DNA of 22,404 nt. Source: a virus. Both the position numbers and the translations under genes were made by a program. The notes under the pieces are model-generated. The model was given only the letters and a program-made list of their open reading frames with translations, searched no databases and was not told the DNA's origin. The stretch spans positions 1 to 22,404 of the IMG/VR virus record IMGVR_UViG_3300042896_000406; one strand, written 5' to 3'. Of the stretch, positions 4,184-22,404 are shown piece after piece (position 1 is the first letter of the stretch; each line of letters starts with the position of its first letter).

Positions 4184-5134
4184 CTACAGGCTTGAATATG
4201 CGGATTCCCATAACTTCCACCCGTCACCAATCGCCCAATTGCGCGCGTGCTCTTTAGCCGCCGCACCCATTGACTCGCGCATCTCGGTGTCATTCACGAG
4301 GTCGCGGAGTTTGCGTTCCCATTCGTGATCCTGTGACACCAAAAAGCCGGTAACCCCATCAATAACGAAATCGCTGTACGGGTCCCACTGGGAAGCAATG
4401 CACGGAATACCGAGCGCCGCATATTCCAACGTTTTGATAGCCGACTTAGACCGATTGAACTGGGATGGAATCAGCGGTGCAATGCCGATATCAAAATCGA
4501 TGCTGCGGTAGTAATCGAACAAATCTGTCGACCAAGTTGTGTGCCGACCTCGCACCTTATTAGCAATCAGATAGTTAGCGCCAATGGAATGAAAATCTAC
4601 GGCCGGGTTACGGTCTAAAAATCGTCGCAACCGTGGCGCAACCATCTCCCAATCACGCAAATGGGAATCACCACCAGCCCACCCAACCGTTACACGATCC
4701 CGGCGAGGTCGCACAAGGTCAAATAAAGCATTATCGACATGGTTGGGTAGTACGGTCACGTTGTCATTGAACTGGCGCATAACGGCCGCCAGTGGCTCGG
4801 TAGACACCGTTACAAGGTGGGCAATCGACGCCGCCGACTCAATCTCCCGCAATTGGTCATCTGTAAACGATCGTTTGGCGCGAAAGTTGCTCGGGTCGAT
4901 ACTCCACAAGTCGTCATCTGTTTCCCACACAAGTTTGTGTGTGCGCCAAGCTTTTAACCAGTGCGGCATGAACCCGGGTCCGCCGAGCCTTTGCCCCACA
5001 ATAATGGCATCGTTCGGGGCTGTACCTTGCCGAGAATATTCGACATCAAGCCCGTTAGCTTTCATCGTGTCAAATGGCAACCTAATACGGTAATAACCGC
5101 ACGCTGTACCATCTTCATACGCATAAACTTGCAC
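4184..5134 (-). CDS. Glycosyltransferase (GT4-like) inside the head gene cluster
   Basis: 316 aa, GTG start with AGGAG five bases upstream. A C-terminal Rossmann-like domain has the GT4 nucleotide-sugar signature: TVGWAGGDSHLRDWE, FDIGIAPL, then SKSAIKTLEYAALGIPCIAS, and DGVTGFLVSQDHEWERKL. The N-terminal half contains YYRIRLPFDTM and LVWETDDDLW. Such enzymes transfer sugars from nucleotide donors. Its place between the major capsid and connector genes, in the same orientation and likely the same transcript, suggests that virion proteins are the acceptor; glycosylated capsids and tails are known in some actinophages. The acceptor is inference. The hairpin at 5149-5175 lies between capsid and this gene and may lower its expression. 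Confidence 0.8.
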   Translation of the reverse strand: MQVYAYEDGTACGYYRIRLPFDTMKANGLDVEYSRQGTAPNDAIIVGQRLGGPGFMPHWLKAWRTHKLVWETDDDLWSIDPSNFRAKRSFTDDQLREIESAASIAHLVTVSTEPLAAVMRQFNDNVTVLPNHVDNALFDLVRPRRDRVTVGWAGGDSHLRDWEMVAPRLRRFLDRNPAVDFHSIGANYLIANKVRGRHTTWSTDLFDYYRSIDFDIGIAPLIPSQFNRSKSAIKTLEYAALGIPCIASQWDPYSDFVIDGVTGFLVSQDHEWERKLRDLVNDTEMRESMGAAAKEHARNWAIGDGWKLWESAYSSL

Positions 5135-11480: not shown

Positions 11481-12164
11481 TTAAGCAATCACATTCCCAA
11501 AATCGAACGCTTGTTGGCTTAACGATTTAGCAATCATTTCGCAATAGCGTTCCTCAAGCTCAACGCCAATACAAGTGCGGCCAAGGTTGCGAGCAGCAAC
11601 AAGGGTTGCGCCCGAACCTGCAAACGGGTCCGCGATCGTTCCGGGCGGACAACGGTCGAGCAGTATCTCCATAAGGCCCACGGGCTTCGGGGTTGGGTGG
11701 CCGATGCGGGCGACCTCCACCGAGCGTGCTTCTGCTGTGGTTATTACCGATCTCAGCGGCGGTGACGACGGGCGGAACCCTTTGCCCAGTATGTATATCT
11801 CTTCATCGTTGGACATGAACGGCATATTGGCTGGGCCGGGGGCTTGACCCTTCTTGTGCCAGATCAAACGGTGTTGCACGTCATCTGGGCGTTGCGCACG
11901 CCATGTGCCAAAGACAATTGCGGAACGCTGCTCTCCCCATGCTGTTAGAACAGCGTCACGAACCTCAGTTGAGTTGTCGCCCGATACGGCATTGCGAATC
12001 TCGGTCTGTGATCCCTTGCCCTTGTAGCCGCCCTTGTGGGCAGTCCACGCGATCCCATAAGGCGGATCGGTCACGAGAACGTCAGCGGTGAGCCAGTCAG
12101 TTACCTCAAGACAATCCCCGAAGTACAGGGTAACGAAGTCGTCTTGGTAATACGGGGTACTCAC
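11481..12164 (-). CDS. DNA methyltransferase (N6-adenine or N4-cytosine), beta class
   Basis: 227 aa. Transfers methyl from S-adenosylmethionine to an exocyclic amino group of a DNA base. Motif IV VTDPPYGIAW (DPPY at 33-36) comes first and the SAM-binding motif I ADPFAGSGATL (about 178-188) comes last, after HPTPKPVGLMEILLDRC; this order defines the beta class. The middle region (RLIWHKKGQAPGPANM, FMSNDEEIYILGKGFRP) is the catalytic core with little room for a separate target-recognition domain. GTG start overlapping the stop of the metallophosphoesterase gene (GTGA). No restriction enzyme gene is adjacent, so this is probably an orphan protective or regulatory enzyme. Confidence 0.9.
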   Translation of the reverse strand: MSTPYYQDDFVTLYFGDCLEVTDWLTADVLVTDPPYGIAWTAHKGGYKGKGSQTEIRNAVSGDNSTEVRDAVLTAWGEQRSAIVFGTWRAQRPDDVQHRLIWHKKGQAPGPANMPFMSNDEEIYILGKGFRPSSPPLRSVITTAEARSVEVARIGHPTPKPVGLMEILLDRCPPGTIADPFAGSGATLVAARNLGRTCIGVELEERYCEMIAKSLSQQAFDFGNVIA

Positions 12165-17383: not shown

Positions 17384-17622
17384 AGTTTCCGCCTGTTGAC
17401 TCGAATAGCTGCACGGTCTTTTGCGGTTGTTCCGCCCCAAATGCCCGGCAACGACGGGTCCTCAAGCGCATAGTTTAGGCACTCCAGGACAACCGGGCAA
17501 AGTGCGCAAATTCTTTTTGCCGGTAGCGATGAGCCTTTGAGATCGGGGAAAAAAACTTCTGTATCGGTTTGGGCACAGAGGGCATCATCCATCCATCCAA
17601 GGTAGCCGTTATCGCGGATCAT
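17380..17622 (-). CDS. WhiB-family iron-sulfur transcription regulator
   Basis: 80 aa with the complete family signature: Cys16 (DDALCAQTDTEVFFP), then AKRICALCPV with Cys39 and Cys42, and Cys48 (LECLNYAL), spacing C-x22-C-x2-C-x5-C, which binds a 4Fe-4S cluster. The G-I-W-G-G turn is at 60-64, followed by the basic tail DRAAIRVNRRKL for DNA contact. WhiB proteins occur only in actinobacteria and their phages and act with the primary sigma factor. Phage copies can alter host gene expression or superinfection. Its ATG overlaps the stop of the methyltransferase gene (ATGA). Confidence 0.95.
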   Translation of the reverse strand: MIRDNGYLGWMDDALCAQTDTEVFFPDLKGSSLPAKRICALCPVVLECLNYALEDPSLPGIWGGTTAKDRAAIRVNRRKL

Positions 17623-18176
17623 ATTTCAGTATCCTTGTCAGCTAAATAAAACAGGGGCGCGTCAATTTTTTGTTCAAGGGTAACGATTGTGTCGTTGTGC
17701 ATACCACCATGTGCAACTAACAGCACTTCCCGAAGAGAATAACCTCGTGACATCCCCATGCCTTGCGAGTTCCACCCAAAACTAACAACCAAGCCACCGG
17801 GTTTTACTACCCGTTGAATTTCATCTTTGCAGGCGCTCCAAAATGTTGCCTGTGTTTCGACCTGACTCAAAGAAAGTCCGATTTCGTCATAACATTCTTT
17901 GATTTGTCTTGGCGAATACGGCGGATCGAATAAAACTCCGGTGAGAGACTCGGTCTCAAACATTTTTAGGAAATCAAGCGCTTGCATGTGATGTTGAGTA
18001 GGTCGATTTGGGTTCAAATCGTTTGTATATTCTGCCGGTGAATTTTCTCCCGCAAATGGATCAGCCCAACCTGATCCGACGCCGACAACGCGGTTCAGCA
18101 TTTTGCGGATAGGTAAAATTGTGAACGTCCACCGGGAAGGCATCGCCCAAACCCGCTCTACGATTGCCGCGCTCAT
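17619..18176 (-). CDS. DNA adenine-type methyltransferase, SAM motif first (gamma order)
   Basis: 185 aa from the ATG at 18176 that overlaps the stop of the preceding gene; an earlier in-frame start at 18191 lies inside that gene. Motif I ADPFAGENSPA (38-48) with the acidic YTNDLNP, then motif IV LFDPPYSPRQ (DPPY 84-87), and the later strand VVKPGGLVVSFGWNSQGMG. The order I then IV differs from its immediate neighbour. No clear target-recognition domain is visible, which suggests a minimal enzyme or one needing a partner, possibly the adjacent methyltransferase. SAM-dependent amino-methylation of DNA is the expected reaction. Confidence 0.82.
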   Translation of the reverse strand: MSAAIVERVWAMPSRWTFTILPIRKMLNRVVGVGSGWADPFAGENSPAEYTNDLNPNRPTQHHMQALDFLKMFETESLTGVLFDPPYSPRQIKECYDEIGLSLSQVETQATFWSACKDEIQRVVKPGGLVVSFGWNSQGMGMSRGYSLREVLLVAHGGMHNDTIVTLEQKIDAPLFYLADKDTEI

Positions 18177-18706
18177 GCAATCACCTCCCACGCAAGCTGT
18201 GTTTCCGTAGCGACTCCGCTGCGAGCTGCGACAACATTAGCCATCCCGCCGCTGCCGGGGAAAAGGTCGGTGAAGTCATCTCCTGGCATCCAGCCGAGCA
18301 GGTCGAGCACCCATGAGTTGAACGCGGCAGGCTTCACGCCCGTTAGCCCCTTGCGCATGGTGATTGACTCCGCGAGGTGATCGCGGCCCACGTCCGCACC
18401 ATCCTTCGATGAGTCCCGACCGGGCGAGAACAGCACCGGCTCCCATGTGTACGCGATCCGCACATTCGCTTTGAACGCGGCAAACGGCTTTACCCATGCC
18501 GCCACGCGCGCGGTCGGGAACAGGGGCAGGAGGTCATGGAGATTGCCGCTCGTCATACTCAGCGCCCAACCATCAAACGTATCAAGAGTGACCGCGAGCC
18601 GTTCCCATGCAGCGATGTCGTCATACTCACGCACCGCCGCGATCTCGGTATCCGAGTACAATTTGCCGTAACCGAAATACGGGGGGTCAGCATAGGCAAG
18701 CCTCAT
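18173..18706 (-). CDS. DNA methyltransferase, catalytic motif first (beta order)
   Basis: 177 aa. Motif IV is at the extreme N-terminus: RLAYADPPYFGYGKLY (DPPY 7-10). The middle contains GWALSMTSGNLHDLLPLF, RVAAWVKPFAAFKANVR and WEPVLFSPGR. The C-terminus holds motif I, FTDLFPGSGGMANVVAA (about 145-161). This is the circularly permuted beta arrangement of amino-methyltransferases. It overlaps the next methyltransferase by four bases and shares its transcript. Phage methyltransferases of this small size commonly protect DNA from host restriction; the target sequence cannot be read from the gene. Confidence 0.85.
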   Translation of the reverse strand: MRLAYADPPYFGYGKLYSDTEIAAVREYDDIAAWERLAVTLDTFDGWALSMTSGNLHDLLPLFPTARVAAWVKPFAAFKANVRIAYTWEPVLFSPGRDSSKDGADVGRDHLAESITMRKGLTGVKPAAFNSWVLDLLGWMPGDDFTDLFPGSGGMANVVAARSGVATETQLAWEVIA

Positions 18707-21233: not shown

Positions 21234-21287
21234 AAAAACACCCCCCGCCAACCTCGACAAGAGGCTAGCGGGGGGTCTTATTTTTTT
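21231..21287. terminator. Bidirectional Rho-independent terminator
   Basis: Outer stem ACCCCCCGC (21240-21248) with GCGGGGGGT (21268-21276), and inner stem CCTC (21252-21255) with GAGG (21261-21264). A U-tract follows on the plus strand (CTTATTTTTTT, 21277-21287), and a second run (GTTTTTTT, 21239-21232) follows on the minus strand. It therefore ends both the rightward pair and the converging leftward lysis transcript. Confidence 0.9.
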
Positions 21288-21619: not shown

Positions 21620-22404
21620 CTAGGAAATGTTGGCTTTAGCGATTGCGTTACTCACGGAAAGCAGCAGCGCGGCAGTAGCGACCCCGTACAGTGCTGCGTT
21701 TCCGTTCAGTTGTGCCGCGATGACTGAAACGATTGTGGCAGCCGCACCCATCCACTCGCCGATGCTGTAAATGATTTTGCGAACGTGCGCCGGAATCTTC
21801 GCCGCCAACTTTTTACTAACCGCAATCATTTCCGGGTTGCTACTGATTGCATCAATCGCTGCCACAATTTCGGCAGGGGTTTTTTTCGGGGTGCTCATGC
21901 TTGTCACTTTCGGTTCGGGTTCGGGTACTGGTACAACATTCGGGACCACTGGCGCGACAATCTCGGGAACAGGTACCACAGGAATAGGCGCAACGACCGG
22001 AGCCGCAAAAGACGCTATTGTCGCGCCCGCGTAATTCATCGACCAGCCCACATATTTCATAGATGGTTTAGCGGCAATGTACGTCCAAAGGTTGATGACA
22101 CCGATAGCGGAACCCCAAACGGTGTCGAGGGTGCGCGAGGCGTGAAATACTTCTGTGCCGCCGCCCTTGAGGTCAACCTGCACATGGCCGTCGCCACCAT
22201 CCCGAAAGAAATGAAATGCGCCGACAGGTGCTTCGGCTGCCATCGGTGAGAGTGGCCCGCTGCACCGTGACACTGAATCAGCCGATGAAATGTCGCCCAC
22301 CGGATTCCAACCAGGCGTGGTGTACGCACCAAACCGGAACATTAGCGAGCCGCACATGCCAGACCATGACGCTTCCACCGTGCCAGGTGTTGGGTAGAGC
22401 GTGG
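21620..22404 (-). CDS. Endolysin joined in frame to a holin-like C-terminus (5' end outside the window)
   Basis: The frame is open to the right edge, so the true start is not seen; an internal GTG lies at 22378. The N-terminal part has a Cys-His hydrolase pattern: SWSGMCGSLMFRFG (possible catalytic Cys), then APVGAFHFFRDGGDGHVQVD (His), and GGGTEVFHASRTLDTVWGSA, as in CHAP/NlpC-type lysins. A Pro/Val-rich linker follows (VVAPIPVVPVPEIVAPVVPN and onward). From Met at 21898 the last 92 residues resemble a holin: HVRKIIYSIGEWMGAAATIV, a first membrane helix, a short turn NGNAAL and a second helix YGVATAALLLSVSNAIA. A separate holin could start at 21898, but no strong ribosome-binding site precedes it. 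Confidence 0.7.
   Translation of the reverse strand, partial: TLYPTPGTVEASWSGMCGSLMFRFGAYTTPGWNPVGDISSADSVSRCSGPLSPMAAEAPVGAFHFFRDGGDGHVQVDLKGGGTEVFHASRTLDTVWGSAIGVINLWTYIAAKPSMKYVGWSMNYAGATIASFAAPVVAPIPVVPVPEIVAPVVPNVVPVPEPEPKVTSMSTPKKTPAEIVAAIDAISSNPEMIAVSKKLAAKIPAHVRKIIYSIGEWMGAAATIVSVIAAQLNGNAALYGVATAALLLSVSNAIAKANIS

Follow-up and report, generated by a model that had tools for sequence, protein, structure and literature searches.

A probable fusion of an NlpC/P60-like endolysin with a two-helix holin-type domain in a tailed-phage genome fragment

The window analysed here is the whole IMG/VR record IMGVR_UViG_3300042896_000406, a tailed-phage genome fragment of 22,404 bp, which carries at one edge an open reading frame (ORF) that we regard as probably a true product of gene fusion, in which an NlpC/P60-like endolysin has been joined to a neighbouring gene of the two-helix holin type, giving a protein that would be tethered to the membrane. 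The observations behind this explanation are the single frame, the order of the domains, the remote family membership of the enzyme, two predicted helices and relatives in which the two parts are split. The remoteness of the family match (~20% identity), the lack of holin homology, the moderate hydrophobicity of the helices and the want of any like protein among 50 relatives count against the fusion and were taken into account in this assessment.

Gene architecture and the N-terminal enzyme domain

The terminase of the window is of the actinobacterial-phage type, with its best match in Arthrobacter (~49% identity), and is followed on the minus strand by portal, capsid and tail genes. A glycosyltransferase gene (4184-5134, minus strand; Pfam Glyco_trans_1_2; phrog_7162 at 2e-62) separates the major capsid gene from the genes that probably encode the head-tail connector, and its product might possibly glycosylate the virion. 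In addition, the window contains two adjacent ORFs of 177 and 190 aa (17619-18706, minus strand), which look methyltransferase-related by eye and have no Pfam family match, as well as a separate N6/N4 DNA methylase (11481-12164).

The codons of the fusion ORF run from 22402 to 21620 with no internal stop, and its layout is an NlpC/P60-like endolysin domain followed, after a Pro/Val linker, by two predicted membrane helices (Table 1). An earlier interpretation, made from the letters alone and referred to below as the sequence-only reading, had proposed that a lysin continues without a stop codon into a holin domain as an in-frame fusion; the uninterrupted minus-strand frame and the coherent codon usage over the junction bear this out. 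The relatives begin with M-x-Q-L-I-T-P-N-P...C and the window with T-L-Y-P-T-P...C, and from this alignment one to three codons are probably missing at the 5' end. Close homologues of the fusion ORF were found neither in 50,697 phage records nor in IMG/VR (peptide patterns), and Pfam and NCBIfam returned nothing useful. A type III needle-tip match, which scored 17 bits against a cut-off of 828, was rejected as a chance helix similarity.

Table 1. Positions of the lysis features in the window
Feature	Position	Strand	Remarks
Lysin-holin fusion ORF (probable)	21620..22402	(-)	260 codons + TAG stop; 5' end cut off at window edge
NlpC/P60-like endolysin domain (predicted)	22008..22402	(-)	Candidate catalytic Cys17 and His73; possible third residue His87 (alignment only)
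Pro/Val-rich linker	21899..22007	(-)	Residues ~132-168; from sequence; frame 0 P/V/E pattern up to PEPEPKVTS
Internal ATG (Met169)	21896..21898	(-)	Could begin a free holin-like protein of 92 aa; GAAAG 8 nt upstream
Holin-like domain	21623..21898	(-)	Two short helices, then membrane hairpin 205-232 + 237-259; predicted N-in/C-in
One-helix membrane protein with coil, 84 aa	21361..21615	(-)	Next lysis gene; weak match to a relative's 95-aa cassette gene
Strong intrinsic terminator	21240..21276	(-)	16-pair stem; late operon end, between convergent genes

For the N-terminal domain, a weak match to phrog_12298 in PHROG (E = 0.021) was nearly the sole result of direct searches. The endolysin of a relative that had been identified by its terminase matches phrog_12298 at 3e-43, and an endolysin family comprising Arthrobacter and Microbacterium phages and IMG/VR contigs was assembled from it. 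The HMM of this family (47 members, window left out) matched the window over its full length and colinearly at E = 0.11 in 5,003 sequences, which is ~2e-5 for a single sequence, and about 1 in 5,000 shuffles scored as high. Across a 32-sequence alignment including the window, G15, C17, L20, P53, G72, H73, Y117, G119 and W120 are invariant, and the motifs Gly-x-Cys, Gly-His and Tyr-x-Gly-Trp are all present in the window in the family order. More distant Microbacterium members have Asp in place of His, and seven distant members, when aligned, proved too diverse for a pattern search.

Structure models point in the same direction. The model of a family member (pLDDT 97) matched NlpC/P60 and CHAP peptidases at VIA Z scores of 7-10, including the phage endolysins Lys2972, Ly7917, LysK and LysGH15. 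For the window itself, the model has low confidence (pLDDT 65) and was built from the family alignment, so that its match of residues 1-128 to NlpC/P60-CHAP enzymes (Z 5-6) is not fully independent of the family assignment; the PDB matches of this half by VIA were cell-wall peptidases, and phage lysins were matched in BFVD. Plain Foldseek of the window model against the PDB gave no significant match, the NlpC/P60 relation being seen only by VIA and through the family model. By these matches of the two models, the domain would have the papain-like fold of such peptidases, which is characterized by a Cys at a helix start and a His on a strand. The domain is thus probably a remote homologue of the phrog_12298 endolysins, and this homology together with the NlpC/P60-CHAP fold suggests that the sequence-only reading was probably right in seeing a Cys-His hydrolase-like domain, here predicted to be an endolysin, and makes a tail protein unlikely. 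No hydrophobic helix of the SAR type precedes the catalytic Cys in the window sequence, which lacks the one to three N-terminal codons, and among the endolysins of Gordonia phages and the lysin A proteins of mycobacteriophages, surveys have identified no SAR domains (PMC9671378, PMC3314691).

As to annotation, phrog_12298 and several RefSeq records (L041:2495-2947, L046:2444-2872 and others) label this endolysin family 'membrane associated protein', which looks like a wrong and propagated label, as the members examined have no C-terminal membrane hairpin and the fold of the family is NlpC/P60-CHAP. As well, Arthrobacter phage Adumb2043 gp56 (L049:2156-3136), a 'tail length tape measure protein' in RefSeq, appears by eye to be an M23-type peptidase endolysin.

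Lysis genes of relatives and the C-terminal hairpin

A terminase search for relatives gave 31 loci, and the contigs of the nearest ones end short of the lysis genes or bear a different endolysin. The terminase of L002 is 97% identical to that of the window, whose copy is unbroken. In G003, with a terminase 62% identical to the window's, the lysis cassette consists of three separate ORFs encoding a lysin (322 aa, glycoside-hydrolase-like), a one-helix protein and a 93-aa two-helix protein.

The arrangement of the lysis genes was counted in 50 non-redundant members of the endolysin family with a complete 3' end. None of the 50 has a two-helix tail on its endolysin; the helical tail of L127, with a single weak hydrophobic peak (1.65), was not scored as a membrane hairpin. 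In 27 relatives, the endolysin stop is followed or slightly overlapped by a separate membrane-protein ORF, whose start lies between -5 and +46 nt of it, and in 18 of those 27 this ORF has two or more helices. Moreover, one-helix cassette proteins occur in relatives too, and several relatives have genes of both kinds, one-helix and separate two-helix, beside the endolysin. Given the missing tails and the frequent adjoining membrane genes, the simplest account of the window's ORF would be that two usually adjacent lysis genes have been joined. The sequence-only reading had proposed to look for split versions among homologues, and such relatives were found in the family; all 50 agree with its statement that lysins and holins are normally separate proteins, although endolysins with two C-terminal helices have been published (PMC6498227, PMC8943055).

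The cassette of the window runs from the endolysin with its two-helix domain in one ORF to the 84-aa one-helix protein and the terminator. The 84-aa gene starts 4 nt past the stop of the fusion ORF, has no Shine-Dalgarno sequence and is likely coupled to it. In one relative (G009; L034:9019-9834, minus strand), a protein with a single predicted membrane helix and long collagen-like Gly-x-y repeats is encoded directly upstream of the cassette's endolysin.

Both helices of the C-terminal hairpin are moderately hydrophobic, the first containing Glu and Trp, and their Kyte-Doolittle maxima of 1.55 and 1.65 are at the low end of the range for the relatives' separate holins (1.6-2.5). The net charge is +3 before the hairpin and +1 after it, and both ends are therefore predicted to lie inside by the positive-inside rule. 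No significant sequence match to holin families was obtained with the C-terminal domain, and a profile of the small two-helix cassette proteins scored 7.7 bits, a value equalled or exceeded by 10 of 2,000 shuffles. Holins comprise many unrelated families, for which sequence homology is no strict requirement. By prediction, the domain has what characterizes a class II-type holin, that is, two helices with N-in/C-in topology, small size and a place in a lysis cassette. As no holin family was matched, the domain would be called a holin from its size, topology and position only; of the two-helix holin-like domain first proposed, the two predicted membrane helices stand, while homology to holins is not significant.

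A nested start at 21898 was also part of the sequence-only reading. This ATG is located exactly on the domain boundary, and its Shine-Dalgarno pairing (-5.7 kcal/mol, 8-nt spacing) is near the median of the phage's own starts (+1 to -12) and better than that of 91% of 126 internal ATGs; however, the remaining 9% do at least as well. That a free product of 92 aa is made is plausible, with about even chances. It may be that the real holin is the 92-aa form, while the long form serves as a tethered lysin or, through its bulky N-terminus, as a brake of the antiholin type, and that the lysis time is set by the ratio of the two, an interpretation that overlaps with the fusion explanation and that we hold to be a little short of evenly balanced. 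In its favour, 92 aa falls within the size range of the relatives' separate holin-like ORFs (~61-151 aa), about half of the endolysins of Gram-positive phages have a predicted internal start, with several verified (PMC9430671), and lambda is an established case of a dual-start holin (described in PMC9671378). Against it, besides the internal ATGs with sites as good, 15% of portal genes gave presumably false internal-start predictions (PMC9430671), and conservation of the start lacks a homologous fusion for comparison.

More doubtful, but still to be weighed seriously, is that the hairpin is a mere membrane-disturbing anchor of the kind in Enc34- and Siskin-like endolysins, with the 84-aa one-helix coiled-coil gene as the holin. 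Enc34 has a one-helix, 114-aa holin gene beside an endolysin with a C-terminal two-helix domain (PMC8943055), and the window has the same two elements adjoining each other in reversed order; the one-helix cassette proteins of the relatives also agree with this. However, the relatives that possess both gene types beside the endolysin speak for a holin gene as the origin of the hairpin.

Integrity of the junction

A codon usage model learned from other genes of the same phage prefers the observed frame on each side of the junction, with a weak preference within the linker itself, and gives no sign of a frame change. As the P/V/E pattern is kept in frame up to PEPEPKVTS, a frame error would be confined to about three codons near the ATG, and an error farther upstream in the linker was ruled out, since the other frames yield no linker-like sequence there. 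An AAA run (CCGAAAGTGACAAGCATG) lies just 5' of the junction, and frame +1 holds a TGA at 21906 and another at 21897, the latter overlapping ATG 21898 (ATGA). With one A fewer in the run, the endolysin would end in ...PEPEPK-TGA at ~21906, with the start of the holin 5 nt beyond, as at an ordinary gene junction; a stop in the linker could also be obtained by any one of four single substitutions. The ATGA start-stop overlap resembles the junctions between the separate lysin and holin genes of relatives, and a +1 slip at AAA-G would free an endolysin without the hairpin.

That one extra A in this run, either an artefact or a very recent natural slip, created the fusion is unlikely. The two TGA codons of frame +1 and the rule of split gene pairs among relatives are in keeping with it, and a search of IMG/VR by peptide patterns found no second contig with the same junction, for which reason a small probability of sequence error is retained. 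On the other hand, few bases qualify, the other genes of the window that were read, such as the terminase, are intact, and a long Pro linker ending in no domain would be unusual; a consensus error at so small a target is improbable by our own estimate. The sequencing error that had been named as a refutation of the fusion is thus excluded for the linker farther upstream and possible at a single position near the ATG.

Very improbable is a virion-associated tail peptidase in place of an endolysin: the ORF does follow the tail genes in the inferred gene order and NlpC/P60 domains are known in baseplate proteins (8v3w), but the nearest family members are stand-alone proteins of 142-310 aa beside holin-like genes, several of them annotated endolysin or lysin A, and the ORF contains no tail domain and is followed by a one-helix gene and then a terminator, so that the structural tail protein once offered as a refuting outcome is unlikely.

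Known lysis proteins and a possible course of lysis

Endolysins with two C-terminal membrane helices have been described for Siskin (PMC6498227) and Enc34 (PMC8943055), phages of Gram-negative hosts. Their homologue M4Lys can cause lysis alone and without Sec, for which its C-terminal domain is required (PMC7143992). Proteins of this type (Casjensviridae and relatives) share with the window an N-terminal enzyme, a linker and a C-terminal membrane domain, and the Siskin hairpin likewise has two helices with predicted N-in/C-in topology. However, their enzyme belongs to the lysozyme-fold PHA02564 family, no sequence similarity was found between the window and Enc34 ORF39, and their hosts are Gram-negative, whereas the host group of the window is probably actinobacterial and the two halves are separate genes in its relatives. 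The Enc34 cassette is a close parallel to that of the window, but as the enzyme domain is unrelated, the window's fusion falls outside the Enc34/Siskin group, though it would be functionally alike.

The phrog_12298 endolysins (MargaretKali gp23, Salgado gp73, Min1 gp59 and Karkharias gp25) share catalytic motifs, fold and a place next to holin-like genes with the window, but those of Arthrobacter and Microbacterium phages end after the domain or in a soluble helical domain. A natural holin-endolysin single protein with a Gram-positive host is WP_163247266.1 of Clostridium sporogenes, in which the order is opposite, with a one-helix TpeE-type holin at the N-terminus (PMC9527704). LysAP of Acidovorax phage AP1 also has a C-terminal membrane domain, but with one helix (194-216), which is required for membrane location and lysis, and a Gram-negative host (PMC8879335). 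Endolysin genes with internal starts give two in-frame products with a common stop codon, as might the window's ORF, but in those genes the smaller product is the endolysin's C-terminal portion, which typically binds the wall (PMC9430671), whereas that of the window would be a membrane protein. All known designs similar to the window's, with the membrane domain at the C-terminus, come from unrelated phages that infect Gram-negative hosts. The membrane-anchored lysin suggested by the sequence-only reading would be consistent with the architecture of the ORF and with these published endolysins.

For the topology, holin activity, tethering and triggering, which we infer, the following course may be proposed. 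The C-terminal hairpin of the full-length protein would be inserted in the membrane with both of its ends inside, and therefore the folded enzyme would be held at the cytoplasmic face before the cell bursts. Oligomerisation of the hairpins would follow, either unaided or set off by the 84-aa one-helix protein, and the oligomers would open the membrane or collapse its potential, upon which the tethered enzyme would gain access to the wall along the rim of the lesion; free hairpin from 21898 might be an additional supply, for which the chances are about even. A bolder possibility, which we consider rather unlikely, is that this one frame is a self-timing device, in which a tethered lysin-holin and a free holin from the internal start couple pore formation and enzyme delivery by their stoichiometry; no such fusion would have been known before, either from an actinobacterial phage or with an enzyme of the NlpC/P60-like kind.

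How the N-terminal enzyme of Enc34-type lysins passes the membrane is an open question (PMC8943055). If the fusion is true, the window would add to these lysins another case, whose enzyme is unrelated, whose phage has a Gram-positive host and whose relatives are split, and would show that the design arose more than once. The window's case would then have arisen by gene fusion, and would offer a natural comparison of fused and split forms for testing the design.
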